64,000 nucleotides of DNA from contig OY811991.1 in the NCBI GenBank assembly GCA_963681505.1, forward strand, positions 2,793,671 to 2,857,670, in the 5' to 3' direction. Position 1 is the stretch's first letter, and every line of letters starts with the position of its first letter. The stretch is from Eunapius fragilis. Its lineage: Eukaryota > Porifera > Demospongiae > Spongillida > Spongillidae. The translations under genes were made by a program, and so were the position numbers. This document shows, in pieces, positions 11,617-47,734 of the stretch. Under the pieces are notes generated by a model. That model made no database searches. It saw only the letters and a program-made list of their open reading frames with translations, and had not been told where the DNA came from.

Positions 11617-11668
11617 CGGGCCTTATTGCTGTTTGCAATTATACTCTTTAACTGTTCTTACGAGTGTA

Positions 11669-14600
11669 ACTGGTTTCAGTTTCTGGGTGTTTTCGGGTGG
11701 GGGGAAAGCCTTAGGTTAGGTAAAGCGTTAGGTTTAAAGGGAAGGGTTGGGATAAACTCTACTTGGTCTTGGTCAGGAGGTCTGAGGGCGTAGGCCCACC
11801 TTATACCCGCCGAAGATTATTTTGCCCGAAATGGACTTCCCACCGGACGAAGACGAAGAGGCCGAAAGGAGAAGTCCGTGTGAGTGTCCAGAGGATGTCG
11901 ATGAGAACCGCGTGACTCCGACAGCTGGTGGCGAGTCAGAAGAGAACCACGTGACTCCGACCAATACTGGTGGAGAGCCTGAGGAGACGGAGGAGAACCA
12001 CGTGGCTCCTAACACCGGAACAACCAGCGCGCGGGCCCAGAGTACGGACTTTACCGTCGTACATCCAACGCAAGTCCGTTTCACCTGTTCAGTATGCGCG
12101 CTGACGTATCGAAAGCACGCCTCGCTCATTCGTCACGTGGGTGTGTCACACAAGAGTGTGAACCTCAACATCAAGTTCAAATGCGCTCTGTACACTCACG
12201 CGAACAAGCGGTCAACATCGCTCCACTTCCGGCACGCCCACGGCGTCGCTATCCCTCCGGCGACGATTGACGGGTCCAAGGAGAAGGCGTGTCCCTTCTG
12301 CCCTCTGACGTTCCCATCCAGCCACTCGTGCTCCATCCACATCAGGGAGAAGCACATGGCTGAGGCGTGCCAGCAACGCTCCCGAGAGGCAGCACAGAAG
12401 GAGGCCCAGCAGGGTGTGTCAACAGCCTGTACAAAGTGGACCCAGCGCGAGATAGAACTCTTCAAGGCCGCGCTCGCAAAGTACGGGCCTGCATCCAACA
12501 TCAAACTGGCCAAAGAGATCGGGACCAGGTCTACAGAGCAGGTCAACGTTTATAAGTGCAGGTTCCTGAAGGCTTACCCAACTTGGGTATCGGAACATTA
12601 CCACCCGGCCACACCTATAGACGGAACCGCCCGCTCCTCCGCTACGACACGTAGCCCATCCTCGCAGCCACAGGCTGGTCACACACCTCCAGGCCCCAGC
12701 AACACCCAGGGGAGCAGGACAGCGGGCCCCAGGGCACTTACAGTCCCAACAGTAAACTCAAGCCGGAGGCGTGGGGCACCCCCCGCATTTCCCACATCGC
12801 CACCATCATCACCACCAGATGCAGCAGCTGCCGGGCAACAGCTGCTTACCAGGTCTCCAACATCTACCACCCCACACCAGGCTGTGGCCTCCGCAAGGCA
12901 GCACTACAGTCCTGGGGTGGGTGAGGCACAATCACAGACCCCTGCGGTGACGCCACCTCCGACCCCACCAATCACCGTTTCCCCAGTCACCGCTCAACCC
13001 AGCCAAAAGGAAAGGACCCCCTCACCACCACCTGTGCCTGTCTCAGAGGGAGGGGTACTGAGGCTCCAGCTCCTTGACCAAGCGCTGACCATCCTAAGGT
13101 CCAACAACATCTCCGTGTGGGACCCTGAAGCCTCTTGCTTCTCCCTACCGGCAACGGACCTGGCCACCCCGACATCCTCCTCACCTCTGACTACGGTCCC
13201 CGCAAGGATGCACTGTAGCCCAGGGATGGGTGGGGCCTGCCAGCCTCAGCCACCACCAGCTACCATCCTACCCTACCTGCTCCAGCAACCACCCCACCTC
13301 CGGCTCCAGTCACCGCAAGGAAGCCCTATAATACAGAGGTGGGTGTGGATCACCTGATGTCGCCGTTCGCTGCATATCCAGAGGAGGCACCAGTGTCACC
13401 ACCCTCCATCTTCCAGTCCCTCCTGCACGTCCCGCCATTCGTCCCGGCTGTCCCACGTACATCCATGACACGACGACTGGATCAGGCGTTACAATCCCTG
13501 AGAGGAGAGGCTCCAGACACCTCCCCCCCTCCCACACCACCATCCTCGCCTGTGCACACCCCACCCCCGGCTACGGTCCCCGCAAGACAGCACCATAGTA
13601 TGGAGATGGGTGTGGCTGCAAGTCAGCCGCCGACCGTCCTTCCTGCTGCTATGGAGTCTGTCCAGCCTACACCACTATCACCACCTGGACTGCCTCCACC
13701 TCCAACCAGGGTCCCTGGCCCATTGGAACGGATCGTCATTGACCCTGATAACATGGATCCGACCCTACGTCTGCCATTTCACCAGGAGCTCCTCCCATTC
13801 GCTGACCGAATGCTGGGGGACTTTGAGTGGGTGGCATTCGAATGTGTCTTAGATCGTTGGTCCACAGCCATCAAGGAGGTGGTGATTGCACAACGCCGCC
13901 GCCCCCTCATCCAACCTCAGTGGGCACGTCGCCAGAGAAGACGACACGCAGGGAATCAGCCACAGCCGCAGCCTCCATCACCATCCCCCTCACTTCCACC
14001 GGACCCGTCGCAGTCCACCGAGCCACAGGTCCCGAACACACCCAACAACCGTGCTTCGGTTCGAGCTCGCCAGGCGGCCAAGTCGAGGTATCTGCAGAAG
14101 CTGTATTGTTCCAACCCTGGGGCATGTATGCGGCGACTATTGGACAATGGTCCTCCTGTTTATTGTACCATCCCAGAGCCTGACCTTGTGGGCCACTTTA
14201 CCACCACCTACGCGGAGTCTCCTCCACTGGGCCCACCCCCCGCCTGGCTGTTCCCAGACAGACAGTCAGGTGAAACTGGGGTGTCTGGAGCCACTGATGA
14301 GGGTGATGTCCTCCAGTCTCCGTTCACTCCAGAGGAGGTGGTGACTCAGTTCAAGAGGACGAAGCGAACATCTCCGGGTACTGACGGCATCACCTACGCC
14401 AACTGGAGGTGGGTGGACCCTAAGGGGGTTGATCCTTGCTACCATCTTCAACACCTGCAGGATCAACTCCAGGGACCCCCGCCCCTGGAAACATTCAACC
14501 GTCACCCTCATTCACAAGGGGGGCGACACAGCCAACATCAGGAACTGGAGGCCCATCAGCCTCCAGCTCACAGTGTACAAACTCTATTCAGCCATGATAG

Positions 14601-14970
14601 CCAGACGCATAGCATCCTGGGCTATCGGATGTTCGGCCTTCTCAGCAGCACAAAAGGGGTTCCTTGCATTTGATGGCTGTGCTGAGCACAATTTCCTGCT
14701 CAGGTCGATGTTGACTGACTCCAGACGGAGGAGCAACCTGCTGCTGACATGGCTCGACCTGCGGGAAGCGTTCCCATCCGTGTCCCACAACCTATTGATG
14801 TTTCTGATGCCCGCCTGGGACTGTCAGGCACTGTAATGAAGGTTGTTGGAGACATCTACTCCCATTCCTCCATGTCGGTCCGTACAGGCAGGGAGTCATA
14901 CACGCCACCCATCCCTCAGAATCGTGGGGTGAAACAAGGATGTCCCCTCAGTCCAATACTTTTCAACATC
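11669..14970 (+). mobile_element. Retrotransposon D1 (family 2), 3' truncated
   Basis: It starts at CTGGTTTCAGTTTCTGGG, directly after CTGTTCTTACGAGTGTAA (11652-11668), so its 5' flank keeps more U2 sequence than family-1 insertions do. The 5' UTR shares the GTTAGGTAAAGCGTTAGG block with D4. The copy ends within RT, just after GVKQGCPLSPILFNI, at about 14970. There it joins the N-terminal region of D2, so the last third of RT, the thumb and the RLE are gone. Confidence 0.8.
11831..14970 (+). pseudogene. Element D1 polyprotein N-terminal two-thirds
   Basis: The ATG is at 11831 (MDFPPDEDEEAERRSP). Finger 1 has CSVCALTYRKHASLIRHVGVSH. Finger 2 has lost 6 nt relative to D4, so FKCALCDYTHANK became FKCALYTHANK and a zinc-ligand cysteine is missing. 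Finger 3 is CPFCPLTFPSSHSCSIHIREKH. The Myb domain lies at about 12427-12590. The frame is open to 13357; a short insertion near 13267 shifts it. The linker continues in the frame at 13339-14430, where an extra G shifts it again, then RT runs to 14836 and 14749-14960 in mixed frames. It has several RT motifs (WLDLREAF, GVKQGCPLSP) but no YADD. Confidence 0.8.
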
Positions 14971-17984: not shown

Positions 17985-18778
17985 ACGAATACCGTTTTGC
18001 TCTCAAAGCCCGTCTGAATCTCTTGCCAACAAGAACTGTAAGGAAAAGATCGGGGGAAACCATCGTGGACGTGAGCTGTCCAAAGTGCCACCTGGAGCAA
18101 GAAACGCTTGCCCACGTTCTCAACCATTGCCCCCCTCATGTGGGTCTGGTGCGGTCCAGACACAATAAGATCTTAAACCGTCTCGCAAATGCGGTTCCAC
18201 CAACAAAAGGGATTAAGATCCTGGAGCAGGTGGTTCCGGGAGACACCAGAGCCCTCAGACCTGACATGGTCATCCTCAATGAGGCAAAGTCAGAGGCCTT
18301 CATTGTGGACGTTACAGTGCCCTTTGAAGGGGAGGAGGCCTTCCAGGCGGCTCGCAGAGCGAAGGAGGATAAGTATGCATACTTGAAACCTCTCCTGCAA
18401 GCCAAGGGCTTCAGAAAAGTGGAAGTGGACGGATTTGTTGTTCGGGCCCTTGGAAGCTGGGACCCAGATAATGACAAAGTTCTACATAAGTTGTCCATCG
18501 GCCAGAACTATGCCATCATGTTCAAGAAGCTTTGCTGTACAGAGACAATTAAAGGTTCATATGCCATCTGGAGGGCGAAGACTGGTTGACTCTGTGTGTG
18601 TATGTGGGGGAACAATCCTACTTATGCGTACCATATAAGTGCACGCACCGCAGTGGGCGGAATGTTGATTTGTGTACTTGTGTGTACCTGGCCGATGAGC
18701 CAGAGAGTGCCACCCCGCAAGGGGTCACCTCTCCGGAGGTGCGGGCCTTATTGCTGTTTGCAATTATACTCTTTAATT
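17985..18778 (+). mobile_element. Family-1 tail C' (RLE and 3' UTR)
   Basis: This is almost identical to 10870-11653 of element C: YRFALKARLNLLPTRTVRKRSGE, knuckle CPKCHLEQETLAHVLNHC, RLE core RPDMVILNEAKSEAFIVDVTVPFEG, then SWDPDNDKVLHKLSIG and stop at 18589. Unlike C, it retains the residues QAKG before FRKVEVDGF, so C carries a small deletion here. The 3' UTR stem-loops are at 18713-18741. It ends AATT where the others have AACT, followed by GTTCTTACGAGTGTAAT and D3. Its 5' part was lost in a recombination with D2. Confidence 0.85.
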
Positions 18779-18794
18779 GTTCTTACGAGTGTAA

Positions 18795-21410
18795 TTGTTT
18801 TCGGTTTCTGGGTGTTTTTTTCGGGTGGGGGGAAAGCCTTAGGTTAGGTTAGGAAGCGTGGGTTTAAATTAGGTTAGGCCAAGCCTTAGGTTTTGATTTC
18901 TGCTTGGTCTTGGTCGAGAGCCGGGAAGCTCCCTTCTCGAAAAACTGTCAAAAGCGGTGGAAGACTCGGGGATTTTGGAGGAGGCGGAGCCTGCTCAGGC
19001 TGCCGACGAAGAAAGACCGCCGGATGAAGGGGGTTCACTTACCCTGAAGCGGATGACGTAAGTGCAGCCGAAACAGAAGTTGACGAGACGGATACTGGGA
19101 CCACGTCAGGACGCCAACAACAACCAGGGGATGCCGGAACGGGAGTCTCCATTCGTCCCCTGACCAGCCGACACGTGACGGACCTCGTCATAATCCACCC
19201 GAGTCAGACCCGCTTCACATGCCCGGACACTGGATGCCGACTCACATACCCCACCCACACCTCCCTCGTCCGCCACGTGGGTGTGTCACACAAGCGCATG
19301 ACCCTCAACATCTCGTTCAAATGCGCTTTATGCGACTACACCCACGCAAACAAACGATCTACCTCGTTACACTTCCGACACGCTCATGGTGCGGCAGTTC
19401 CTCCAGCGTCGATTGAAGGCTCCAACGAGAAGGCATGTCCCTACTGCCCATTGACATTCCCAACGATGCGCTCGTGTTCCACACACATGCGCGAAAAGCA
19501 CATGGGGGAGGTATGTGCCCAAAGGGCCAGAGAGGCCGCGGAGGAGGTACAGCGGGGGACGTCAACAGCGCGAGCCAAGTGGACTGAGCGTGAAGTCGAT
19601 CTGTTCAAGACGGCACTAGCTAAATATGGACCGGACTCCAACATAAAGCTCGCAGCTGAAATCCAGACCAGGTCTGCAGCGCAAGTGAACGTGTTCAAAT
19701 GGCGTTTCCTTAAGGCTTATCCATCATGGTTAAGCGAACATTACCATCCAGCGCCACCCGCGGGCAATGCCCTCAACCCTCGTCACGCCTCATCGTCACC
19801 ACGCAGCCCGTCCTTACAGACACCTTAAGACCGCTCCCCCAGTGTGACCCAAGCACCCAGGACACTAGTAGGCACTGGAGCAAGACCTGCCACTGAAAGG
19901 ATAGCTGTAAGGTCTGGAAAAGGAACACGGCCTGTCACTGCTGTTCCATCATCACCATCATCCCAACTAGCAGTATCTCCACCTGGTCCACAACTAGCAG
20001 CCAGAACAGACACCCCTCCATCTCTGGCTAGTCCGGAGGCGGGAGTAGCCCTTCAACCAGCACTGTCTGATGCAGCAACCACGCCCATGGCACAGTCACC
20101 CATGAGCCCACCCCACAATGCTCCACGATCCAGTCCGGGTGGTGAAGAGAGAACCCCTTCACCAGCACCTGTGCAGCTCTCTGAGGAGGGAGTTGCAAGG
20201 GTTCAGCGCCTCGACCGGATGCTGCAACTACTGAGGCCTCAAACCGTCTCATCTTCGACACTCCCAGCAGGCACTACCACCCCCATCTCTATGCTGCCAG
20301 CAGCTGACCTGGCGTCTACCGCCCCCCACCCCACTCATAACTCCGGACACACCAAGGATGCCCTACATCCCAGGGGAGGGTGTAGAACAGCCATCGGCAC
20401 CATCACGGGCTGCGATGGTCTCTTCGTCCGACAACCTCTCTGACCTACCACCCTCTGTCTTCCACTCCCTCATCAATGCCCCGCCTTTCATTCCCGGAAT
20501 GTTATATCTGGAGGCACCTACAATGTCGCCAGAGAGTGAACCAGCGCTGACACTCGCCACCTCCCGGTCGTCCCTGGATGCACAGCCATTCATTCCAGGT
20601 ACAACCTGGACATCAACAAGGGTCCAGCGACTGGACCAGGTACTGCTAACCCTGAGGGAGGGGATCGCTCCAGACACCTTCCCCCCTCCCACGCCACCAT
20701 CTTCACCTCAACACGCCTCACCGCCGACTGCGGTCTCCGAAAGGCAGCACTGCAGCCCGGCGGTGGACGTTGTCATCAGCCAGCCGCTATCTATGTCGCC
20801 AGCTGTGGGAGGGGTCAACCCGCCAACACCACCGTCGTCACCTGGCCAACTACCACCTCCGGCTGGGGCCCCCGGTCCACCAGCTACCATCACCATCGAC
20901 CCAGAAAGGATGGATGAAACCCTGCGTATGCCCATGTACCAGGAGCTCGCCCCCTTGCTGAATGAACTGGCAGAATGGCAGAAGCTCGATGCCTACCGCC
21001 GATTTCTGTTCCCCCGTCTGAACTTTGCGCTCAAAGTAGTGTTCCCAGGGGCTACATGGTGCCGAAAGCTGGACACGGCTATTCGGGCTATCATCAAGCG
21101 GGGACTACACCTCCCACCAAGGACCTGCACACAATACCTCTACTTGTCGCAGGCCTTGGGGGGGATGGGTATTCCAAGTGTTGAGGATGAGTCCCACGTA
21201 GCGCGTTCAGCCCAGGCCTTCAAATTTCTATCGGACTCTAGGGACGTCAGGGTGCAGAACGTGGCAATTGACCAGCTGGTGGCAACAGTAGCCAAGCGGG
21301 CCCCTTATCTGGACCCTACTGACCCCGATCACCACGAGAGGTGGCTAGCCACCACAGCGAGCCCATTGGAGGGAAAGGCTGGGGACCTCCAGTCCCTTTG
21401 GAGCTCTGGA
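18795..21410 (+). mobile_element. Retrotransposon D3 (family 2), RT core deleted
   Basis: The 5' UTR begins TTGTTTTCGGTTTCTGGG after the retained U2 target block. The N-terminal fingers, Myb and linker (19175-20350) are nearly identical to D2. A frameshift is near 20340. The linker (20358-20950) contains two RLDQVL..LR-type motifs. At about 20956 the frame jumps in phase from RMPMYQELAP to LLNELAEWQKLDAYRR, deleting the whole RT catalytic core. The thumb continues to LQSLWSS at 21408, where element E begins. It is an in-frame internal deletion derivative with no polymerase and no endonuclease. Confidence 0.8.
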
Positions 21411-33674: not shown

Positions 33675-34205
33675 GGGTCATTCCATGGGCTGTCAGGAAT
33701 GAATTGGACAGCACCCCTCAGATTTGTGTGCAATTTATCATATTTGCTTGACCTAATATGGATGTTACTTTAACGCATTAATTTTTAAAATCGCACGAGT
33801 GGTTTACGAATTAACACCATCATGAATAATTAATTGTTTTCCACTTTGAAGACTCATAACTCCCTACTCACAGAACGTGTATGGCTATTGTTGGCATCAA
33901 ATTGAAGTTCTCTTAGTATACAATCCGACTATAATATGTTTCTGTGGGAGAGGCGAAAGGGTTAACGAATAAATGTTTATACAGCACGGTTTTCAATATT
34001 TAAGTCACTTGCAGGGTGATACTCAAGAATTTTGTTTTTGTATATGAAAACTGTTCATTGTCCTTACATTTTACAAAAATAAAAAGTCTGAGTATCAGCT
34101 AGTTCTGGGAACTGCAGAGGGTTAAAGGGCAAGACGCCATTTTTAATTTCTTCATGGTTGATTTTATCACTAATGAGAAGCAAGTGTTGTTTAGATGCGT
34201 CTCAA
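33675..34205 (+). repeat. Left inverted-repeat arm
   Basis: AT-rich, no coding potential. It is the reverse complement of 38977-39507 with only scattered mismatches, for example GGGTCATTCCATGGGC against GGGTCATTCCGTGGGC. Confidence 0.9.
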
Positions 34206-34424
34206 GGGTATTACATAATACTGTCCTCAACTATCACAACAGTAAGAAAGGGCGTTGGTAATTTAAAAAATGATTTTTAGTACATCGAATTGCGCATTTA
34301 TTGGAAACCGTTACTAAGCCTTCTCATAATGGGATCGTTGCTTAGGTAAGCGTGCTCGTTATTACTGTCATAAGTGGTTAAAGCTCAACATTTCTTTTGA
34401 TTGGAAGTAAAAAGGAACAACGAG

Positions 34425-34680
34425 GTTTAAATGAACCGGCGGTGAGACCTATTCAACCGGCTCAAGAAGTGGTGGTCCCTCAACTGTTTATACGCTGGAT
34501 GACGGCGTACCGGGGATCGGGGATCCCACCCGCGCGCGTACCGGGGATCCCACCCGCGGCACCACTACCGTGGTGCCGCGGGTGGGATCCCCGGTACGCC
34601 GTCATCCGGCGTATGAACAGGTTGAGGGACCACCACTTCTTGAGCCGGTTGAATAGGTCTCACCGCCGGTTCATTTAAAC
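34425..34680. repeat. 256-bp GC-rich foldback palindrome
   Basis: The arms start GTTTAAATGAACCGGCGG and are mirrored at 34680. The centre is GGCACCACTACCGTGGTGCC. The left arm carries an additional partly duplicated unit of about 32 bp with GGGGATCCCACCCGCG. It has the form of a small foldback element or MITE. It interrupts the N-terminal side of element H and supplies the stop codon (34676) before its open frame. Confidence 0.85.
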
Positions 34681-37600
34681 TCCAACCACCTCGCCGGAGT
34701 GCCTGCCCACCATACAACCTACTATCTCTCTTCAATCCCGGGCCTCTCTACAGCTCGCTGACCAGGCACTTCGATTACTGAAAGCCCCACCCACCACCTC
34801 CCCCCCCAGAACTCAGGAGCCCTCCTCTACACCCCCCACTACCCACCCTGAAGTCCCATCATCAGCTGTCAGACTACATCCAACCCGTTCCCCAACACCA
34901 ACCCACTCTCCCCTTCCGCGACATGGCCCAGACCCCGCTGAAAGGGACTACAGCAATGGCTCACCCTTGGCCTACATCACGCCCCGAGCCACTACCCAGT
35001 CAACAGCACCCCCCATCAGCCTGGCCTTACATGACCTAGTTGCCTCCATCAGAAAAGAGGTGGAACTGGGTTGCAAGTCCAACCCAAGACGAAGGAGGGA
35101 CCAGGGCCACCTCTCCTCACCCTCAACGACTGGAGAAATCTCTCCTCCACCCCCTCCTCAACCAAGAACTCCCTCCCTACCCTGTGACAGCCCAACTACT
35201 ACCCCACATCACCCCAAGGCCTCCTCGAGATCCATGAGTCATTCCTCTCCCTCTACAGCTGAACAACCATCTCCTCCTCCATCAAGTCAGTGGGCCCCCC
35301 CCCCACCCCCCCACTTGCCATATGGCCCGCCAGCGGTAATTACACAGCCTTCCCTGGGTGGGTTGCACATCACAACCACACACGTCCCTCGAATAGCCCC
35401 CACCCCATCTACAAACAATATGAGGGAGGGCAGGTCTGTAGGCCCCTATAATTGGTATGGTCCCAGTTGGTTAACCAAGCATCCACCCCTCATAGACCAG
35501 AACAGAAGTATGGGGCCATGCCCACCACTAGGAAACTGGGTGGGTTGGGGGGAGGGTCCCAGAGGTAAAGGGAAGGAGACACCTTCTAGGCCCCCTATCA
35601 CTACTTCGGCCCGTCCCGTGCTAAGGGGGAATAGGATCCGAGGGCCCACTGGGCCATTCACGGGTAACAACAACAGGGGGGGCCTTGTACCTACAACTGG
35701 ACAACCAAGTAGAGGGTTCAACCAGCCTTATACTTCTAATGGGCCTCATCGACACAGAGTAATCCAACCAGGCAGTGGGGAGTCATTAACCCAACCCAAC
35801 CCTAGTGTCAACCACCTGGGGATAGATGGCGGTGTCCAGCCTGGTGGTGGGGGTGGACCTGAGGATGCTTTGTTCCCCCGGGGTCCCCTCTCCATGAACC
35901 CTAACGACAATACAGCCCCAGTGAAGCTGTTCTCCAAACTCCTCCCCTACACCGAGCGCCTTCTCTCTGACACGGAATGGTCCCAGTGGTGTTCGCTACT
36001 GGACTGCTGGACCCAGGGCTTCTCCAAATGGTTCTCGGATAGATCCAAACCGCCCACACCAACACCCCAAGCGGCCTGGGCGCGCAGACAACAGGACAGG
36101 AGACCAAACGAAAGACGCCCAAACACCCAACAGGACAGGTCCCAAACAAGAAACCGTGCCATAACACGTATGGTCGCAGTGCAGAAGGCCTACCGACAGA
36201 ATCCAAAGCGCTGCATGGCAATGTTGCGAAAATCTCCTCCACCTGTGCGTTGCAACATTCCCATCGCAACAGTTGAGACATATTTCTTAGCCAAGCAGAA
36301 TGTGGCCGACCCCAGCGTCCCCATGGAACCCCCACCATTCCAATTGTGGCAGGACACAACTCCCACTGACCTGCTAGAGGTACCCATCACCAGCCAAGAG
36401 GTACTAACCACACTGAGGAGAACAAACCTAAACTCTGCCCCGGGTCCAGACCGCCTGCCATACGCCGCATGGAAGAGGCTTGAACCAATCCCAAACATCG
36501 TAACCAGCATCCTGAACACGTGCAGGATCAACGCCAAGATACCACCCTCTTGGAAAGGCTCAAATACAATCTTGATCCACAAAGGTGACAGCGTCAACCA
36601 TCTCGACAATTGGAGGCCCATCGCACTCCAAAACACTCTGTACAAAGTGTACGCCTCAATAATAGCTCGACGCTTATCAACCTGGGCCATCAGCAACAAC
36701 ATTGTCAGTCCCTCTCAGAAGGGCTTCCTTCCAGTAGAAGGCTGCCTGGAGCATGGATTTGTCCTGAAAAGTGTCCTGCAGGACTCACGCCGCAACAAGA
36801 GGGAGGCCTGCATAGCCTGGTTAGACTTAAAGGACGCCTTTGGCTCAGTTCCCCACCCTGTCCTCCTGGAAACCCTGCGTCTCGCTGGCCTCCAAGGTAG
36901 CACTCTAGATGTCATCAAAGACATATACACCAATTCAACAACTTCAGTTAAAACATCTTCGGCCACATCCACCCCAATCATCTGCCGAAGAGGAGTGAAA
37001 CAAGGATGCCCCCTCAGCCCTATCCTCTTTGACCTCATCATTGAGGTCATTATAAGAGCAATGGACAGGGTCCCAAAGGCAGGCTACCGAATCGCCCACT
37101 CCACAGTCAGGTCGCTCACATACGCTGACGACCTGTGTGCATTTGCCTCATCCCCCGCCATCATGCAACAGATGCTGACAGGGGCCCAGAACGCGGCAAC
37201 ATGGGCAGGTCTGACATTCAACCCCCGCAAATGTGCAATCCTCTCCATTGTCCGTGGGAGCGGCAAAAGGCAAAGAGTGGATAGACCCCAACCCTCCATC
37301 TCAGGAGAACCAGTACCAACTCTCCCATGGGATGGGCAGTACAAATATTTGGGGTGCACAAGAGGAGCTGACCCAAACTCCGACCTAACCCAGGCTGCCA
37401 ATGACTACCTGAGTGACTGTAAAGTCATCCTGGAATCGGAGCTAACAGACTGGCAAAAAATAGATGCCATCAAACGTTTTGCCAGACCCAGGATGACATA
37501 CTTACTCCAGAACATGGAACCCACCATCAGCTGGGCCAGGTCGATCGACCAAGAGCTGAAATCCCTGGCCAAAATGTGCTTCAAGCTCCCCAACCGTGCG

Positions 37601-38734
37601 ACTACGTCCTACTTCTACGCACAAACCAAGGCAGGTGGCCTGGCTCTTCCAAGGATAGAGGACGAGATCCATCTATTCAGAATCTCGACTGCATACAAGG
37701 TCCTCTTTGCCCAAGGTGACGCCCAACTTCGGGACATCTCAACATCAGCCCTCGGCAAGACTGCTGAGATACGCACTCGAAACCAGAAGTCGGCACAAAC
37801 CTTCCTCAACGATCCAGCAGACCCTGGTGAGGGACGGCGAGGAGACATTAAGTCCCTGTGGAGCGAAGTCCGTTCCTCTCTTCAGCACTGCCGAGCAAAA
37901 TTCAACCTCCAGGACCAGTCAATAACTTGTGACGGCATAACTCTTGGATGGAGCAAGAGGAGAAACATTACTGGCCTCCTCCGTAACGCCATCCAGAGCA
38001 GGTATGTGGAAGACTGGAAGAGATGCCCAGACCAGGGTAGAGCAGTCATCTGCACGTCAGCCCACCCAGCAAGCAACCATTGGGTCACCACAGGCCGCTA
38101 CACTAGTTTTGGCGAGTACCGGTTCGCCATCAAGGCCAGATTGAATCTCCTCACCACCCGCACCTCGCGCTTCAGAGCTGGAGATAGAGTCCCAGATCGC
38201 AGCTGTAGACGCTGCAATACAGAGCAGGAGACCCTCGCTCATGTCCTGAATCATTGCCCAACCCACGTGGGCTTGCTAAGAAAGAGACACAACAACATCC
38301 TAGCTCGTCTCTCCAATGCGATTCCAGTCTGGAGAGGCAAACAATTCAAAGAACAGGGGGTCCCGGGAGATAACCTTGGTCTTAAACCAGACCTCGTCAT
38401 TCTCGATGACACTAAAAAAGAGGCTTTCGTAATAGATGTGACCATGCCCTTCGAAGGGAACGGATCCTTTGCAGAGGCCAGACAGACCAAAGAAAGGAAG
38501 TATGGCCATCTTAAAGCTCTCCTTAATGCCAAGGGCTACAATAGGGTAGAGGTGGATGCCTTTATTGTGGGCCCCCTTGGTAGTTGGGACCCGGCCAACG
38601 ACCCAGTCCTCCACAAACTTTGCATCAGTCGTCGCTACGCAATCCTGTTCCGGAAGCTATGCTGCACTGAGGCACTGAAAGGCAGCTTTGGAATATGGAA
38701 GGCATTCACTGAGGGGCACCCCCCTAACTCATAA
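34679..38734 (+). CDS. Element H RT-RLE polyprotein, 5'-truncated, 1351 codons open
   Basis: The frame opens after the TAA at 34676 with no proper N-terminus, so this is a partial product. Order: linker with LQLADQALRLLKAPP (about residue 25), HGPDPAERDY, GPYNWYGPSWLTKH; pre-RT segment PVKLFSKLLPYTERLLSDTEW; RT with SAPGPDRLPYAAWKR, NWRPIALQNTLYKVYASIIA, KGFLPVEGCLEHGFVLKS, WLDLKDAFGSVP, RRGVKQGCPLSPILFD and YADD at 37121; thumb; CCHC knuckle CRRCNTEQETLAHVLNHC (about 38207); RLE KPDLVILDDTKKEAFVIDVTMPFEG (about 38388-38460). All polymerase and nuclease signatures are visible. Without fingers and Myb it should not find its target by itself. No internal ATG is clearly a start. Confidence 0.85.
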   Translation, partial: TPTTSPECLPTIQPTISLQSRASLQLADQALRLLKAPPTTSPPRTQEPSSTPPTTHPEVPSSAVRLHPTRSPTPTHSPLPRHGPDPAERDYSNGSPLAYITPRATTQSTAPPISLALHDLVASIRKEVELGCKSNPRRRRDQGHLSSPSTTGEISPPPPPQPRTPSLPCDSPTTTPHHPKASSRSMSHSSPSTAEQPSPPPSSQWAPPPPPHLPYGPPAVITQPSLGGLHITTTHVPRIAPTPSTNNMREGRSVGPYNWYGPSWLTKHPPLIDQNRSMGPCPPLGNWVGWGEGPRGKGKETPSRPPITTSARPVLRGNRIRGPTGPFTGNNNRGGLVPTTGQPSRGFNQPYTSNGPHRHRVIQPGSGESLTQPNPSVNHLGIDGGVQPGGGGGPEDALFPRGPLSMNPNDNTAPVKLFSKLLPYTERLLSDTEWSQWCSLLDCWTQGFSKWFSDRSKPPTPTPQAAWARRQQDRRPNERRPNTQQDRSQTRNRAITRMVAVQKAYRQNPKRCMAMLRKSPPPVRCNIPIATVETYFLAKQNVADPSVPMEPPPFQLWQDTTPTDLLEVPITSQEVLTTLRRTNLNSAPGPDRLPYAAWKRLEPIPNIVTSILNTCRINAKIPPSWKGSNTILIHKGDSVNHLDNWRPIALQNTLYKVYASIIARRLSTWAISNNIVSPSQKGFLPVEGCLEHGFVLKSVLQDSRRNKREACIAWLDLKDAFGSVPHPVLLETLRLAGLQGSTLDVIKDIYTNSTTSVKTSSATSTPIICRRGVKQGCPLSPILFDLIIEVIIRAMDRVPKAGYRIAHSTVRSLTYADDLCAFASSPAIMQQMLTGAQNAATWAGLTFNPRKCAILSIVRGSGKRQRVDRPQPSISGEPVPTLPWDGQYKYLGCTRGADPNSDLTQAANDYLSDCKVILESELTDWQKIDAIKRFARPRMTYLLQNMEPTISWARSIDQELKSLAKMCFKLPNRATTSYFYAQTKAGGLALPRIEDEIHLFRISTAYKVLFAQGDAQLRDISTSALGKTAEIRTRNQKSAQTFLNDPADPGEGRRGDIKSLWSEVRSSLQHCRAKFNLQDQSITCDGITLGWSKRRNITGLLRNAIQSRYVEDWKRCPDQGRAVICTSAHPASNHWVTTGRYTSFGEYRFAIKARLNLLTTRTSRFRAGDRVPDRSCRRCNTEQETLAHVLNHCPTHVGLLRKRHNNILARLSNAIPVWRGKQFKEQGVPGDNLGLKPDLVILDDTKKEAFVIDVTMPFEGNGSFAEARQTKERKYGHLKALLNAKGYNRVEVDAFIVGPLGSWDPANDPVLHKLCISRRYAILFRKLCCTEALKGSFGIWKAFTEGHPPNS

Positions 38735-38917
38735 CCCTTTAACTCATAACCCTCTATTGTGTATTTTTGCGTGTCTGCAGCACGCCTTCATTTCTTGTTA
38801 CCTGTAACTGTGTACTACCGGCCCAAATGAGGCCGAGAGAGTCGTTCCCTACGACGGGACCACCCCCTTTTGGAGGTGAAGACCTTCCTTGATTTTTCCA
38901 ATCAATTTTCTTCAACT
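34681..38917 (+). mobile_element. Retrotransposon H (family 1), N-terminus missing, RT-RLE intact
   Basis: It lies inside the inverted-repeat element. The 5' UTR, fingers and Myb are absent, cut at the foldback. The rest, including the whole RT and RLE and the 3' UTR stem-loops (38846-38878), is uninterrupted. The end AACT (38914-38917) is followed by U2 sequence GTTCTTACGAGTGTAATATC, so the 3' junction is the authentic insertion joint. The intact frame suggests it was mobile recently. Confidence 0.85.
38846..38878 (+). promoter_or_regulatory. 3' UTR stem-loop pair of element H
   Basis: CCC-TACGAC-GGG, then CACC..GGAGGTG, preceded by CGGCC-CAAATGA-GGCCG at about 38819-38835. It corresponds to the structures in A, C, C' and F. 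Confidence 0.55.
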
Positions 38918-38980
38918 GTTCTTACGAGTGTAATATCTCGTATCGGGACAATGTCCCGACGATATTACATCAATTTTTGA
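38918..38980 (+). ncRNA. U2 snRNA fragment (stem II to Sm site) after H
   Basis: GTTCTTACGAGTGTAATATC, then TCGTATCGGGACAATGTCCC, then GACGATATTACATCAATTTT and TGA. It is identical to 47330-47392. It stops in the Sm-site region at the edge of the inverted-repeat arm; stems III and IV are missing. Confidence 0.9.
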
Positions 38981-39507
38981 GACGCATCTAAACAACACTT
39001 GCTTCTCATTAGTGATAAAATCAACCATGAAGAAATTAAAAATGGCGTCTTGCCCTTTAACCCTCTGCAGTTCCCAGAACTAGCTGATACTCAGACTTTT
39101 TATTTTTGTAAAATGTAAGGACAATGAACAGTTTTCATATACAAAAACAAAATTCTTGAGTATCACCCTGCAAGTGACTTAAATATTGAAAACCGTGCTG
39201 TATAAACATTTATTCGTTAACCCTTTCGCCTCTCCCACAGAAACATATTATAGTCGGATTGTATACTAAGAGAACTTCAATTTGATGCCAACAATAGCCA
39301 TACACGTTCTGTGAGTAGGGAGTTATGAGTCTTCAAAGTGGAAAACAATTAATTATTCATGATGGTGTTAATTCGTAAACCACTCGTGCGATTTTAAAAA
39401 TTAATGCGTTAAAGTAACATCCATATTAGGTCAAGCAAATATGATAAATTGCGCACAAATCTGAGGGGTGCTGTCCAATTCATTCCTGACAGCCCACGGA
39501 ATGACCC
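38977..39507 (-). repeat. Right inverted-repeat arm
   Basis: Reverse complement of the left arm. Its inner end TTGAGACGC overlaps the last four bases of the U2 fragment, within the Sm-site region (AATTTTTGA). Confidence 0.9.
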
Positions 39508-41597: not shown

Positions 41598-41656
41598 ATC
41601 GCTTCTCGGCCTCTTGGCTAAGATCAAGTAGAAATAACTGTTCTTACGAGTGTAAT
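41598..41656 (+). ncRNA. U2 snRNA gene, 5' part, copy 2 (split by D4)
   Basis: ATCGCTTCTCGGCCTCTTGG matches the canonical U2 5' end. It continues to CTGTTCTTACGAGTGTAAT, the target block, which is repeated on the far side of D4. Together with 47330-47475 this gives a gene of about 188 nt, the normal U2 length. The branch-point recognition segment reads UAGAAAUAAC instead of containing GUAGUA. Stem IIa (ACGAG...CUCGU) differs from vertebrate U2 by paired changes. Confidence 0.9.
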
Positions 41657-41816
41657 TGGTTTCGGTTTCTGGGTGTTTTCGGGTGGGGGGAAAGCCTTAG
41701 GTTAGGTAAAGCGTTAGGTTTAAAGGGAAGGGTTGGGGTAAACTCTACTTGGTCTTGGTCAGGAGGTCTGAGGGCGTAGGCCCACCTTATACCCGCCGAA
41801 GATTATTTTGCCCGAA

Positions 41817-44800
41817 ATGGACTTCCCACCGGACGAAGACGAAGAGGCCGAAAGGAGAAGTCCGCGTGAGTGCCCAGAGGATGTAGACGAGAACCGCGTG
41901 ACTCCGACAGCAGGTGGCGAGTCAGAAGAGAACCACGTGACTCCGACCAATACCGGTGGAGAGCCTGAGGAGACGGAGGAGAACCACGTGGCTCCTAATA
42001 CAGGAACAACCAGCGCGCGGGCCCAGAGTACGGACTTTACCGTCGTACATCCAACGCAAGTCCGCTTCACCTGCCCAGTATGCGCGCTGACGTATCCAAA
42101 GCACGCCTCGCTCATTCGTCACGTGGGTGTGTCACACAAGAGCGTGAACCTCAACATCAAGTTCAAATGCGCTCTGTGTGACTACACTCACGCGAACAAA
42201 CGGTCGACATCGCTCCACTTCCGGCACGCCCACGGCGTCGCTATCCCTCCGGCGACGATTGACGGGTCCAAAGAGAAGGCGTGTCCCTTCTGCCCTCTGA
42301 CGTTCCCATCCAGCCACTCGTGCTCCACCCACATCAGGGAAAAGCACATGACTGAGGCGTGTCAGCAACGTTCCCGAGAGGCAGCACAGAAGGAGGCCCA
42401 GCAGGGTGTGTCAACAGCCCGTACAAAGTGGACCCAGCGCGAGATAGAACTTTTCAAGGCCGCGCTCGCAAAGTACGGGCCTGGATCCAACATCAAACTG
42501 GCCAAGGAGATCGGGACCAGGTCTACAGAGCAGGTCAACGTTTACAAGTGCAGGTTCCTAAAGGCCTACCCAACTTGGGTATCGGAACACTACCACCCGG
42601 CCATACCTGTAGACGGAACCGCCCGCTCCTCCGCTACGACACGTAGCCCATCCTCGCAGCCACAGGTTGGCCACACACCTCCAGGCCCCAGCAACACCCA
42701 GAGGCGCAGGACAGCGGGCCCCAGGGCACTCACAGTCCCAACAGTAAACCGGAGGCGTGGGGCGCCCCCCGCATTCCCCACATCGCCACCATCATCACCA
42801 CCAGATGCAGCAGCTGCCGGGCAACAGCTGCCTACCAGGTCCCCAACATCTACCACCCCACACCAGGCTGTGGCCTCCGCAAGGCAGCACTACAGTCCTG
42901 GGGTGGGTGAGGCACAACCACAGACCCCTGCAGCGACGCCACCTCCGACCCCACCAATCACCGTTTCCCCAGTCACCGCTCAACCCAGCCAAGAGGAAAG
43001 GACCCCCTCACCACCACCTGTGCCTGTCTCAGAGGGAGGGGTACTGAGGCTCCAGCTCCTTGACCAAGCGCTGACCATCCTAAGGTCCAACAACATCTCC
43101 GTGTGGGACCCTGAAGCCTCTTGCTTCTCCCCACCGGCAACGGACCTGGCCACCCCGACATCCTCCTCACCTCTGACTACGGTCCCCGCAAGGATGCACT
43201 GTAGCCCAGGGATGGGTGGGGCCTGCCAGCCTCAGCCACCACCAGCTACCATCCCACCTGCTCCAGCAATCACCCCACCTCCGGCTCCAGTCACCGTAAG
43301 GAAGCCCTATAATACAGAGGTGGGTGTGGATCACCTGATGTCGCCGCTCGCTGCATATCCAGAGGAGGCACCAGTGTCACCACCCTCCATCTTCCAGTCC
43401 CTCCTGCACGTCCCGCCATTCGTCCCGGCTGTCCCACGTACATCCATGATGACACGACGACTGGATCAGGCGCTACAATCCCTGAGAGGAGAGGCTCCAG
43501 ACACCTCCCCCCCTCCCACGCCACCATCTCCACCTCAACACGCCTCACCGCCGACTGTGGTCTCCGAAAGGCAACACTGCAGCCCGGCGGTGGACGTGGT
43601 CATCAGCCAGCCGCTACCTATGTCGCCAGCCGTGGGAGGGACCAACCCGCCAACACCACCGTCGTCACCTGGCCAACTACCACCTCCGGCTGGGGTCCCC
43701 GGTCCACCAGCTACCATCACCATCGACCCAGAAAGGATGGATGAAACCCTGCGTATGCCCATGTACCAGGAGCTCACCCCCTTCTCTGGGAGGCGGCTGG
43801 GGACCTTTGAATGGGTGGCCTTCGAAGAGGTACTGAAGCGCTGGTCCACTGCCATTAAAGAGGTGGTGACAGCTCAGCGTCGCCGCCCCCCCAACCCCAC
43901 GTCTCAATGGGCACGTCGACGGAGGAGACGGGCACGGGAACGGGAAGGCCGCCCACCATCTCCATCTCCTGACCCGGACCTGCCACCTGACCCATCCCAG
44001 CAGACAGGAGAGCAGGAACAGACCCAGAACCCCACCAACACCAGGGCCTCGGGTCGAGCTAGGCAGGCAGCCAAGGCCAGACACCTGCAGAAGCTCTACC
44101 GGGCTAACCCTGGCGTGTGCATGAGGCGTCTTCTGGTATCAACCCCACCTGTCTTCTGCAAGATTCCAGAGCCAGAGTTAGTACAGTATTTCACCAACAC
44201 GTTCGCTGAACCACCCCCACTGGGTCCACCCCCCGCCTGGCTGTTCCCAGACAGACATCCAGGTGACACTGGGGTGCCTGGAGATACTGACGAGGGTGAT
44301 ATCCTCCAGCCTCCAATCACACCAGAGGATGTGGTCACTCAGTTTAGAAGGACGAGGCGAACTGCCCCTGGAGTGGATGGTATCACCTACACCAACTGGA
44401 GGTGGGTGGACCCTAAGGGGTTGATCCTATCTACCATCTTCAACATCTGTAGGGTCAACTCCAGGGTCCCCCACTCATGGAAACACTCCACGGTGATACT
44501 CATTCACAAAGGGGGAGACGTCACGTCGGTCCGGAACTGGAGACCGATAAGCTTACAGCTGACCATGTACAAATTGTACTCTGCCATCATTGCCAGAAGA
44601 ATCGCCTCCTGGGCTATCGCAACCTCGGCCTTCTCAGATGCCCAAAAGGGCTTCCTAGCGTTCGATGGATGTGCCGAACACAATTTCATTCTCAGGTCCA
44701 TGATGACCGATTCCAGGCGCAGGAAACGCAACCTCCTTCTCGCCTGGCTAGATCTTCGCGACGCCTTTGGGTCAGTCCCTCACCACCTCATACTGAACAC

Positions 44801-46874
44801 CATGCAGAGGTTGGGCCTGTCAGGGTCGGTGCTTGAGATTGTGAGGGATATCTACTCGCACTCCACGGTTTCTGTACGCACTGGAAGGGAATCATATACA
44901 CCAGCTATTCCCCAGAACCGTGGAGTGAAGCAGGGGTGCCCCTTGAGCCCGATCCTCTTCAACATCGTCCTGGAGAGCCTGCTAAAATACCTCGCTACCA
45001 ACAAAGCAGGCTACACCCTGGCACAGGACCACTACAACTCCCTGGCCTACGCAGACGACGTGTGCGTGATGGCGTCAACCAAGGAGGGGCTTCAGAGCCT
45101 ACTTGACCAGTGCAAGGAGTTCGCGGAGTGGGCGGGTCTCGCCTACAATGTGAAGAAGTGCGGCTCCCTGTGCCTGATCAATGAATCCCACATCTATGTT
45201 GACTATCTCTTCACCCCTCACCTGGGCACAGAGATCATCCCAGCTCTCTCGTGGGAGGAGAGATACCGCTACCTTGGATGCCCCACTGGGGCCTATCGCA
45301 CGCACACAAGCGTCCTCGATGAGCTGAGGGAGAACCTGCTCAAGGACTGTGGCATTGTCTTTACCTCCGAACTGGCAGAATGGCAGAAGCTCGATGCCTA
45401 CCGCCGATTTCTGTTCCCCCGTCTGAACTTTGCTCTCAAAGTAGTGTTCCCAGGGGCTACATGGTGCCGAAAGCTGGACACGGCTATTCGGGCTATCATC
45501 AAGCGGGGACTACACCTCCCACCAAGGACCTGCACACAATACCTCTACTTGTCGCAGGCCTTGGGGGGGATGGGTATTCCAAGTGTTGAGGATGAGTCCC
45601 ACGTAGCGCGTTCAGCCCAGGCCTTCAAATTTCTATCGGACTCTAGGGACGTCAGGGTGCGGAACGTGGCAATTGACCAGCTGGTGGCAACAGTAGCCAA
45701 GCGGGCCCCTTATCTGGACCCTACTGACCCCGATCACCTCGAGAGGTGGCTAGCCACCACAGCGAGCCCATTGGAGGGAAAGGCTGGGGACCTCCAGTCC
45801 CTTTGGAGCTCAGTGCGCGGCAGCCTCATCCTGACAGGGTCATTCATCAAGCTGACGGAGGAATCTGCCACGCTGCACACAGCGAAGCATACTGTCACGT
45901 GGGCCAAACGCAAACTCGCATACCAAGTGCTTAAAGAGGGTACTAACAGCCGCCACCTCACCCTCCTCCAACACTCAGCAGACCAGGGCAGGGCGTCCTT
46001 CTCAACCTCACTCCACCCGGACTCAACCTTCTTCACGTACACTGGGGCATTCCTCTCCTTCCCCCAGTATAGGTTTATTCATCGTGCAAGGTTGAACCTT
46101 CTCCCTGTCCGCACGGTACAGGCTCGTTGCCGCCGACTGGTCCCCACTACACAGTGCCGAACCTGTGGGAGAGTCCCTGAGACCCTTGCCCACGTGTTAA
46201 ACCATTGCCATTTCAACCTGGGAATGGCAAGGGCGAGGCACAATTCCATCCTCGAGAGGATCGTGCGGGCGGTCCCGGAGTTTGTGGGGACCAAGATGAA
46301 AGAACAGCAGATCCCAGGAACAACGGGGGACAACCGCCCTGACCTCACCATCATCTCTCCGTGTGGCACCAAAGTCACCCTGGTTGAAGTCTCCTGCCCC
46401 TTTGAAGGCACACCAACGGCTCTGGAGGATGCAGCCAACCTCAAGATGACAAAGTATGAGCCCCTGCGTCAACAGCTCCTCCAGACCTATGCGGAAGTCA
46501 CCATCCACCCCTTCATCGTGGGAAGTCTGGGCAGCTGGTTCCCAGGAAACGACAGAGTCCTCTCTGCCCTGCGCATTGGCCAGAAATATGCAGCTCTGAT
46601 GCGGCGCTTGTGTGTGGTCTCTGCTATAGCTGGGTCCCAGAACATCTGGTACCAGGCTATGTGCAAGAGCCACCACAGACCAGCCAGAGGGGAAGATGGT
46701 CCCACTGACACAGGAAGAACTGAAGTCACTGAAGGCGATGGCCCTGCTGCGGTTGGTGCTACTGTTGTCGGAGGTCCTGAAGCTGTGGGGGGCCCTGTGA
46801 CACCTCAAGGGGGTATTGCACTTGACAATGCCAGCGTCCCACTCAACAATGCCAGCGTCCCAGCTACACCTTGA
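41817..46874 (+). CDS. D4 polyprotein: 3 ZnF - Myb - RT - RLE, 1685 aa
   Basis: The start is the ATG at 41817 (MDFPPDEDEEAERR); the frame is open back to 41772, but with no earlier ATG. Domains: C2H2 fingers at about residues 84-107 (CPVC, H-x4-H), 116-139 (CALC) and 154-177 (CPFC); Myb about 203-255 (KWTQREIELFKAALAKYG); proline-rich linker to about 830 with repeated LDQAL..LR and ARQHYSPG motifs; RT about 838-1190 with APGVDGITYTNWR, WLDLRDAFGSVP, NRGVKQGCPLSPILFN and YADD at 1078-1081; thumb; CCHC knuckle C1447, C1450, H1459, C1464; RLE P-D1509 and E1524 in RPDLTIIS...VTLVEVSCPFE. The fingers and Myb should bind U2 DNA, the RLE nick it and the RT copy the RNA. No lesion is seen; a repeated PLNNASVP tail ends the protein. 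Confidence 0.93.
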   Translation: MDFPPDEDEEAERRSPRECPEDVDENRVTPTAGGESEENHVTPTNTGGEPEETEENHVAPNTGTTSARAQSTDFTVVHPTQVRFTCPVCALTYPKHASLIRHVGVSHKSVNLNIKFKCALCDYTHANKRSTSLHFRHAHGVAIPPATIDGSKEKACPFCPLTFPSSHSCSTHIREKHMTEACQQRSREAAQKEAQQGVSTARTKWTQREIELFKAALAKYGPGSNIKLAKEIGTRSTEQVNVYKCRFLKAYPTWVSEHYHPAIPVDGTARSSATTRSPSSQPQVGHTPPGPSNTQRRRTAGPRALTVPTVNRRRGAPPAFPTSPPSSPPDAAAAGQQLPTRSPTSTTPHQAVASARQHYSPGVGEAQPQTPAATPPPTPPITVSPVTAQPSQEERTPSPPPVPVSEGGVLRLQLLDQALTILRSNNISVWDPEASCFSPPATDLATPTSSSPLTTVPARMHCSPGMGGACQPQPPPATIPPAPAITPPPAPVTVRKPYNTEVGVDHLMSPLAAYPEEAPVSPPSIFQSLLHVPPFVPAVPRTSMMTRRLDQALQSLRGEAPDTSPPPTPPSPPQHASPPTVVSERQHCSPAVDVVISQPLPMSPAVGGTNPPTPPSSPGQLPPPAGVPGPPATITIDPERMDETLRMPMYQELTPFSGRRLGTFEWVAFEEVLKRWSTAIKEVVTAQRRRPPNPTSQWARRRRRRAREREGRPPSPSPDPDLPPDPSQQTGEQEQTQNPTNTRASGRARQAAKARHLQKLYRANPGVCMRRLLVSTPPVFCKIPEPELVQYFTNTFAEPPPLGPPPAWLFPDRHPGDTGVPGDTDEGDILQPPITPEDVVTQFRRTRRTAPGVDGITYTNWRWVDPKGLILSTIFNICRVNSRVPHSWKHSTVILIHKGGDVTSVRNWRPISLQLTMYKLYSAIIARRIASWAIATSAFSDAQKGFLAFDGCAEHNFILRSMMTDSRRRKRNLLLAWLDLRDAFGSVPHHLILNTMQRLGLSGSVLEIVRDIYSHSTVSVRTGRESYTPAIPQNRGVKQGCPLSPILFNIVLESLLKYLATNKAGYTLAQDHYNSLAYADDVCVMASTKEGLQSLLDQCKEFAEWAGLAYNVKKCGSLCLINESHIYVDYLFTPHLGTEIIPALSWEERYRYLGCPTGAYRTHTSVLDELRENLLKDCGIVFTSELAEWQKLDAYRRFLFPRLNFALKVVFPGATWCRKLDTAIRAIIKRGLHLPPRTCTQYLYLSQALGGMGIPSVEDESHVARSAQAFKFLSDSRDVRVRNVAIDQLVATVAKRAPYLDPTDPDHLERWLATTASPLEGKAGDLQSLWSSVRGSLILTGSFIKLTEESATLHTAKHTVTWAKRKLAYQVLKEGTNSRHLTLLQHSADQGRASFSTSLHPDSTFFTYTGAFLSFPQYRFIHRARLNLLPVRTVQARCRRLVPTTQCRTCGRVPETLAHVLNHCHFNLGMARARHNSILERIVRAVPEFVGTKMKEQQIPGTTGDNRPDLTIISPCGTKVTLVEVSCPFEGTPTALEDAANLKMTKYEPLRQQLLQTYAEVTIHPFIVGSLGSWFPGNDRVLSALRIGQKYAALMRRLCVVSAIAGSQNIWYQAMCKSHHRPARGEDGPTDTGRTEVTEGDGPAAVGATVVGGPEAVGGPVTPQGGIALDNASVPLNNASVPATP

Positions 46875-46989
46875 ACTGCATTATTCAGCACGAGACTGCC
46901 CTCCTCCCTCTCCCGACCCACTGTGAACACTACCCATTACCCCATACCCCTTTCATACACACCTCCCCTACATACCCTTCCCCACTACT

Positions 46990-47054
46990 CTTCTGTCACA
47001 CACACACACACACACACACGTCTCCTTGACACCCCCCCCCCCCCCCCCCCCCCT
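46990..47054. repeat. (CA)n and poly-C tract in D4 3' UTR
   Basis: A short CA microsatellite followed after 10 bp by about 21 C residues. Such runs are unstable and the exact length may be an assembly approximation. Confidence 0.85.
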
Positions 47055-47325
47055 GTTTGACCATCCTGCCTTGGATGTCACTGCCGGTCATCGTACCAAC
47101 GATCTCTACAATCCCCGAGTCTGTCCTAACTGCTGAACTACCACTTTGTCACCAAACTGACAAATTGCGTGCCATTTTTCTATGATAGTTAGAATATGTG
47201 TATGTTGTTTGTGCATTCTACCTCCCAACGTAAAGTTGAGGGGCTCCCCAGCGATGGGATTAAAGATGGCCCTGTTGGTGTTGTGCCGTGTATTTTGTAC
47301 ATTGTGCAATTCCATTATGAAATTT

Positions 47326-47475
47326 AACTGTTCTTACGAGTGTAATATCTCGTATCGGGACAATGTCCCGACGATATTACATCAATTTTTGAAACCTGGG
47401 ACTCGGAGTGAAGCTTGCTTCGCCGGTCCCACGGATTGCCCCAGTATTGCACTACATCTGGGTGCGGCCCATCCC
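47326..47475 (+). ncRNA. U2 snRNA gene, 3' part (downstream of D4)
   Basis: After AACT it holds stem IIa/IIb, the Sm site AATTTTTGA (47384-47392), stem III (GGGACTCGGAG...GGTCCC) and stem IV (CCCCAGTATTGCACTACATC then TGGG). The end is set at about 47475 by length and by analogy with U2 of other animals. It is the natural partner of 41598-41656. The insertion must prevent a normal U2 transcript from this copy. Confidence 0.9.
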
Positions 47476-47734
47476 CCTTGGGGGAAATAAAATCCATAAT
47501 ATCAGACTATAAGTAAAGAGTCAAATTGAGGACTTAGAGTTTTTTGATGTTTATTTTAAGTATGTTATAAAAAAGCTTTGGTAATTGGAGATAATGCTTA
47601 ATTGATCTTAAAGTGATCTTGTTTTGGATGCTTAAGCCATGAAGTCATGTTTATGGCACTCCCCGGTCGGACCTGATGAGTATAGCACTCCCCTTTTCGG
47701 AAATCCTGTAACCGCCTCTGCCATTATGTTTATA

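Follow-up and report, generated by a model that had tools for sequence, protein, structure and literature searches.

Utopia retrotransposons are defined by their association with the U2 small nuclear RNA (snRNA) gene: the insertion site is the defining criterion and the 3' flank starts at nucleotide (nt) 39 of U2 (PMC4640811). The same 2015 survey reported target duplications of 20 bp in reptiles and none in arthropods, tandem insertions in Nasonia, several families in Phytophthora with at most 10 intact U2 genes, and many families with low copy number or undetermined ends (PMC4640811). Here we describe D4, an element that interrupts a U2 snRNA gene in a 64,000-nt stretch of genomic DNA (hereafter the window; positions refer to its full length, and C-numbers denote contigs of the same genome, which comprises 219 Mb in 24 contigs). 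We conclude, with a probability of about 0.92, that D4 is a recently mobile Utopia-type element in a U2 gene.

R2-homologous proteins have been found in sponges, and the absence of Myb was used to define Utopia (PMC13188248, 2026). In that paper, sponge R2 homologues with Myb, such as E. muelleri-1, are called non-site-specific, and their flanks are said to resemble Utopia flanks more; one model derives R2 from Utopia or a common progenitor, and the N-terminus of lineage A R2 was possibly taken from a sponge R2 homologue (PMC13188248). It is the only paper treating sponge relatives among the literature found by our search, outside which most subscription journals lie. A zinc finger/Myb region has also been described among all early-branching long interspersed nuclear elements (LINEs) (PMC5678591).

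D4 interrupts a U2 gene and is flanked by a target duplication

The U2 gene is split by D4 after nt 59 and resumes at nt 39, which leaves a 21-bp target duplication. The duplicated stretch (U2 nt 39-59), AACTGTTCTTACGAGTGTAAT, lies on either side of D4 within the block TAACTGTTCTTACGAGTGTAAT, found at 41635-41656 and 47325-47346. Duplication lengths of 21 and 22 are indistinguishable because D4 ends in a T and U2 nt 38 is also T, which adds a 22nd shared base. The 17-base core AACTGTTCTTACGAGTG presented five matches in the window with up to three mismatches, compared to 0.14 expected from shuffles. The Rfam U2 model scored 42 bits on the 5' part, which misses the cut-off of 46 as a partial gene should, and 99.9 bits on the 3' half, where the reported start at 47309 is a spurious extension over the tail of the element; the true 3' junction lies at 47325/47326.

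When the flanks of D4 were joined in silico, they aligned with uninterrupted U2 loci of the genome: locus L017 over 515 columns with 90.9% identity and locus L013 over 468 columns with 93.4%. Both alignments include upstream and downstream flank, and the other 11 loci compared match shorter stretches. The joined flanks of D4 are an ordinary U2 locus. The two U2 pieces thus form one gene broken by D4, as the initial annotation of this stretch had proposed with correct coordinates, and the duplicated target block that it reported was found on both sides of the element.

Domain organization of D4

D4 possesses a frame of 1,700 codons from stop to stop, starting at 41772, with the stop codon at 46872-46874; the unbroken open reading frame (ORF) of 1,685 codons previously annotated runs from the first ATG at 41817. 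The features expected of a full-length element with a restriction-like endonuclease (RLE) were all recovered: a reverse transcriptase (RT) identified by Pfam, and zinc fingers, a zinc knuckle and an RLE that align with R2 (Table 1). The RPD, E-V and K positions of D4 align with the R2 endonuclease, and we assume the catalytic roles of these residues by analogy.

Three N-terminal fingers and a Myb domain had also been proposed, and several lines of evidence agree with them. The twelve C and H residues of the three CCHH (C2H2) fingers were invariant in an N-terminal alignment of five elements, namely D4 and its relatives A, B, E and F from the same genome. The Myb family PF00249 matched the N-terminal pieces of all five at E ≤ 0.1 and exceeded its cut-off of 24.4 bits in three of them (D4 25.3, A 25.8, F 30.8). 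The AlphaFold2 model contains units resembling fingers and, where Myb is expected, a unit of three helices, with predicted local distance difference test (pLDDT) values by block of 71-86 for the fingers, 79-85 for Myb and 45-65 for the linker. The fingers and Myb of D4 probably bind DNA.

We then compared profiles of the five elements to known structures. The RT-to-RLE profile (E without RLE) best matched 9nl2 (1e-100) and 8gh6 (1.3e-73), both R2, and each of these matched a second stretch over the knuckle and endonuclease; we take 8gh6 to be Bombyx R2, and 9nl2 was taken as turtle from the literature. The N-terminal profile matched 9nl3 (1.3e-14) and 9dou (1.7e-14), colinear over the three fingers and Myb, followed by CTCF chains (best 3.7e-12) and then by the R2 structure 9nl2 (3.6e-11). 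We considered 9nl3 as zebra finch through its match to 9dou, R2Tg. An HDV (hepatitis delta virus)-like ribozyme, as at the 5' end of R2, was absent from the Rfam matches at E ≤ 5 for D4 and element A. A long poly-C tract in the 3' untranslated region (UTR) is common to D4 and to A, which belongs to the other lineage defined below.

A second copy of D4 suggests very recent movement

The initial annotation had proposed a survey of the genome for other U2 copies with the same insertion, and we found one on C7, in another U2 gene. Over 5,658 aligned bases, this second copy of D4 (C7:2682549-2688206) shows no substitution; the 11 gap columns of the alignment all fall in the poly-C tract, whose length is the sole difference between the copies. 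Their 5' flanks are unlike: D4 is preceded by U2 nt 1-38 and the C7 copy by the 3' UTR of element B. The U2 parts behind the copies are identical for 109 bases, then show two in-gene differences, and diverge past the gene. A substitution-free copy in differing flanks points to very recent movement of D4, which strengthens, beyond the open frame, the earlier suggestion of a candidate active copy; D4 may be active at present.

Identical copies could also have arisen by duplication or gene conversion between U2 loci, without two retrotranspositions, since the U2 genes are a multigene family of small size and both copies are followed by the same initial 109 bases of U2. However, the unrelated 5' flanks and the divergence of the loci behind U2, while the element itself lacks substitutions, make this unlikely. 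The identical copies are better explained by two insertions from a single, very recent lineage than by a locus duplication.

Relatives of D4 are associated with U2 target copies

The RT query yielded 134 matches in the genome, many of which are pieces of single elements. We identified 40 target copies, compared to one for the same pattern read backwards; 12 of the 40 sit in uninterrupted U2 genes. At 34% identity or more there are 67 RT matches; a target copy lies no further than 10 kb away for 48 of them and no further than 25 kb away for 59. None of the 67 matches below 34% lay within 50 kb of a target copy, this split having been chosen after the list was seen. The match at C18:139762, one of the low-identity group, was considered as an R2 relative outside U2 and rejected, because its upstream frame reads, by eye, as a LINE of the apurinic/apyrimidinic endonuclease (APE) type. 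No relatives were confirmed outside this genome in viral contigs and prokaryote contigs, searched with two short patterns each.

Classification of D4

Because the insertion point of D4 is the published Utopia site, "Utopia-type" describes it better than "R2-type". Insertion at U2 nt 39 accords with the earlier choice of Utopia as the closest kind. The label "R2-type" holds for the domain layout only: in an RT tree of nine rows (five U2 elements, three R2 proteins and an outgroup), the five U2 elements were split from the three R2 by a branch supported at 100/100, and the target is U2 and not 28S. The outgroup branch of this tree is very long (4.14) and attaches on the U2 side; the root is unsure and the references are few.

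It is conceivable that D4 is a true R2 that happens to sit in a U2 gene, as it possesses the domain layout of lineage A R2 and its best matches in the PDB are R2 proteins. Against this, the RT falls across the 100/100 branch from the three R2 (in a small tree with a long outgroup), relatives cluster at U2 sites, and the flanks of D4 are U2 rather than the 28S ribosomal DNA (rDNA) site of R2; we consider a true R2 very unlikely. The region of D4 is full of related repeats, one of which the assembly might have joined to a U2 gene, but the same junctions and target duplication occur on another contig, of 10 Mb, and the joined flanks yield a normal U2 locus, making such an artefact highly improbable. 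Finally, a Keno-like element is scarcely credible although Keno uses the same U2 3' site (PMC4640811), given the R2-like RLE of D4 and the absence of any APE family from its Pfam matches at E ≤ 1. As for NeSL, no protease family (Ulp1-like) was found in Pfam at E ≤ 1, and the target is U2, not the spliced leader.

Several points weigh against D4 being a recently mobile Utopia-type element. D4 is a candidate member of the Utopia clade by site and domain descriptions, and the RT tree compared it with R2 references. For Myb, PF00249 remained below the cut-off in two of the five N-terminal pieces (B 14.8, E 23.3) and on the whole D4 protein (22.0 bits), and the AlphaFold2 model is only moderately confident (overall pLDDT 73; predicted template modelling score, pTM, 0.38). 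Evidence for the activity of D4 consists of DNA sequence. For eight of the 67 relatives, no target copy was identified within 50 kb (C19: two, with 61 and 68% identity; C21: three, with 34, 45 and 55%; C4, C14 and C16: one each, with 35-36%), and the RT matches are not independent because many are pieces of one element or of one C21 region. The ratios of nonsynonymous to synonymous substitution rates (dN/dS, Nei-Gojobori), which count in favour of this reading, are low between D4, B and E (D4-B 0.17, or 0.09 from RT to RLE; D4-E 0.18; B-E 0.20); these values are rough because dS is high (1.0-2.4). The near-identical pair formed by F and element G of the window presented a dN/dS of 0.54 from 8 differences, and A versus D4 was saturated.

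Stacked elements, two lineages and two duplication lengths

The order on C7 is U2 nt 1-42, A (1,617-codon frame), the 21-bp target, B (1,779), the 21-bp target, the D4 copy (1,700) and U2 from nt 39. Three different elements with long open frames occupy this one broken U2 gene. A shares 40% identity with D4 over 879 residues; for B the values are 65% over 1,278 residues and 47% over 483 residues at the N-terminus. Sequence identity separates lineage 1, composed of D4, B and E, from lineage 2, composed of A and F; the tree agrees at modest support (A+F 88/97, D4+B+E 82/67).

We searched the genome with a U2 5'-end pattern (up to two mismatches), which yielded 37 matches versus 18 for the backwards control. 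Twenty of these are U2 5' ends (17 exact and three variant on C1), leaving out weaker ends such as C1:12509111. Thirteen of the 20 continue into a full-length U2 match, 12 being normal-looking and one, on C10, diverged. The seven others do not: four stop after nt 42 (AACT), that of D4 after nt 59, and two otherwise. These U2 counts are lower bounds, as 46 candidates out of 6,854 were scored in the family search, which gave 28 matches. Lineage 2 accounts for the next downstream RT match of all four nt-42 ends: two are A and F, whose full sequence was read, the match in the window resembles F most, and C21:3353250 was assigned only through its 51% identity to D4. In lineage 1, the 21-bp block lies in front of B, of E and of the two D4 copies. 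Duplications of 21 and 4 bp with a 3' flank that starts at nt 39 suggest that the bottom-strand cut is shared and that the top-strand cut differs.

Some loci are incomplete. Element E (L085, C21:3345600-3351700) presents a 1,661-codon open frame that departs from the family sequence shortly ahead of the endonuclease; behind it lies an uninterrupted U2 gene. E was therefore rejected as an intact element, and its 3' end was replaced or lost. At L033 (C16:2046817-2046913), about 73 nt from the 5' part of U2 run straight into the interior of the RT region of an element; this locus is apparently a deletion derivative.

Other elements in the window

The earlier view of D4 as an intact U2 insertion stands, but D4 is not alone: it has many relatives, whose tblastn pieces span 282 to 41338. 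Upstream of D4, a large part of the window consists of fragments from the two lineages, in nested and stacked arrangement (Table 1). The termini of the DNA transposon in this region begin GGGTCATTCC, with a 4-bp duplication ATCC, and the 531-nt terminus has at least 40 copies in the genome (469 candidates, 40 of them scored). The transposon captured 4.3 kb of a lineage-2 U2 element, G, together with U2 nt 39-105, a cargo with 99.8% identity to a C16 locus. F and G share 99.6% protein identity. We did not accept this pair as another recent jump, because G is enclosed by the 531-nt termini and shares the sequence of F as far as U2 nt 105, and so was most likely copied by the DNA transposon. The U2 piece at 38914-38980 was likewise rejected as the partner of the U2 5' part at 5806, since the transposon carries it. 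The left end of the captured DNA bears nested inverted repeats (34425-34680), perfect over 60 and 30 nt and 94% identical over 35 nt.

Table 1. Features of the D4 locus and of other elements in the window
Feature	Position	Strand	Basis or remark
U2 snRNA gene, 5' part (nt 1-59)	41598..41656	+	Identity of 100% with an uninterrupted U2 gene from this genome
Target duplication, 5' copy, 21 bp (U2 nt 39-59)	41636..41656	+	
Complete element D4, 5,669 nt	41657..47325	+	Bounds from target duplication and second copy on C7
Single ORF, 1,685 codons from first ATG	41817..46874	+	Open from 41772
N-terminal zinc finger 1 (CCHH)	42072..42137	+	C/H columns invariant in 5/5 element proteins; AlphaFold2 model
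N-terminal zinc finger 2 (CCHH)	42168..42233	+	Invariant C/H in 5/5; AlphaFold2 model
N-terminal zinc finger 3 (CCHH)	42282..42347	+	Invariant C/H in 5/5; AlphaFold2 model
Myb-like DNA-binding domain	42420..42536	+	Pfam PF00249; three helices in AlphaFold2; colinear with R2 finger-Myb region
RT domain, YADD at 45048-45059	44505..45281	+	Pfam RVT_1, E 2e-32; R2 structures; motif position
CCHC zinc knuckle	46155..46208	+	Alignment with R2 and elements A, B, F
RLE core (RPD ... EV ... K)	46335..46457	+	Aligned with R2 endonuclease region
Poly-C tract in 3' UTR	47032..47053	+	11 nt longer than in C7 copy
Target duplication, 3' copy, 21 bp	47326..47346	+	
U2 snRNA gene, 3' part, from nt 39	47326..47476	+	98.7% (47325-47476, from nt 38/39) to uninterrupted U2
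5' part of another broken U2 gene, ends at nt 42	5806..5847	+	4-bp duplication type
Degenerate lineage-2 relative	6072..11458	+	tblastn pieces, best to A or F
Target copy between two relatives	11650..11670	+	1 mismatch in 21
Broken close relative of D4 and E	11786..14970	+	N-terminus 95% to D4; later part 91-98% to E
Target copy	18775..18795	+	1 mismatch
DNA transposon, 531-nt inverted termini	33675..39507	.	With lineage-2 element piece and U2 nt 39-105

Host U2 genes and mitochondrial contig

All 13 uninterrupted U2 genes (L009-L021) read AAGTAGAA versus AAGUGUAGUAUCUG in the Rfam consensus, in the branch-site pairing region (41629-41640 in the window). The usual U2 16-mer, AAGTGTAGTATCTGTT, had no exact match in the genome and, with up to two mismatches, 204 matches versus 378 for the control. 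Either the host possesses an altered branch-site recognition sequence or a second U2 class was missed.

The 28.5-kb contig C24 is the mitochondrial genome. Over its first 13 kb, which were read, the genes lie on one strand in the order trnF, rns, trnG, trnV, rnl, cox2, trnK, atp8, atp6, trnR, cox3, trnQ, trnW, trnN, trnL, cob, trnT, atp9, trnS, trnP (protein genes named by eye; trnW listed as SeC (tca)). We take mitochondrial atp9 and this gene order to be demosponge features. Oomycetes, insects and reptiles had been named as Utopia hosts in the initial annotation; the host here is probably none of these, and the mitochondrial contig suggests a demosponge.

Proposed mechanism

The most likely mechanism is target-primed reverse transcription, with enzymatic steps that would be as follows. 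The D4 endonuclease would nick the bottom U2 strand at the nt 38/39 boundary. The freed end would then prime complementary DNA (cDNA) synthesis, with the element RNA copied from its 3' end, so that the 3' junction starts at nt 39. The top strand would be cut 21 nt downstream, after nt 59, yielding the 21-bp duplication. Because this duplication keeps the nick site on both sides, further elements could stack in the same broken gene. D4 may be transcribed from the U2 promoter.

Implications and comparison with known systems

D4 combines Myb with U2 specificity, contrary to the split made in 2026 (PMC13188248). The absence of Myb, the working criterion by which sponge elements are called Utopia there, does not describe D4, since Myb matches were obtained in five of five pieces and AlphaFold2 modelled Myb-like helices. 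That definition is in doubt given that a zinc finger/Myb region is present among all early-branching LINEs (PMC5678591), and Myb in Utopia may be less unusual than it implies. The combination found in D4 bears on the proposal that R2 arose from a Utopia-like element (PMC13188248). It is possible, although we hold this as a tentative and rather doubtful idea, that U2-specific elements with three fingers and Myb were the source of the R2 N-terminus and that the sponge "non-site-specific" Myb proteins are U2-specific. The prediction is that other sponge "non-site-specific" R2 homologues sit in U2 genes.

If that idea on the source of the R2 N-terminus is true, one genome holds both states for testing an R2-like change of target, with a shared bottom-strand nick and a top-strand cut 21 or 4 nt away. 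The identical D4 pair suggests a very recent jump, and the C7 stack shows the 21-bp duplication re-creating the target. With four different open elements (D4, B, A and F) among about 20 U2 loci, this genome constitutes a natural system for studying how a host copes with repeated breakage of essential U2 genes.

Among described systems, Keno shares the U2 3' insertion site of D4 but possesses an APE instead of an RLE (PMC4640811). Lineage A R2 presents three fingers, Myb, RT, knuckle and RLE in the same order as D4; all three D4 fingers are CCHH, whereas the second zinc finger (ZnF2) of R2 is CCHC (PMC13188248). The sponge non-site-specific proteins resemble D4 in Myb, in their all-CCHH fingers and probably in their host group, but D4 is U2-specific, which sets it apart from them as they are described (PMC13188248). 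D4 differs from described Utopia elements in its probable sponge host, a group absent from Table 1 of PMC4640811, in its Myb fold (the words Myb, sponge, Porifera and Amphimedon are absent from the main text of that paper), and in the two duplication lengths, 21 and 4 bp, found here in one genome. It resembles them in its position within a U2 gene with a 3' flank from nt 39, in the presence of RT and RLE in one ORF, in possessing both the one to three N-terminal fingers and the single C-terminal zinc motif, and in a duplication of about 20 bp, tandem insertions and several families in few U2 genes (PMC4640811).

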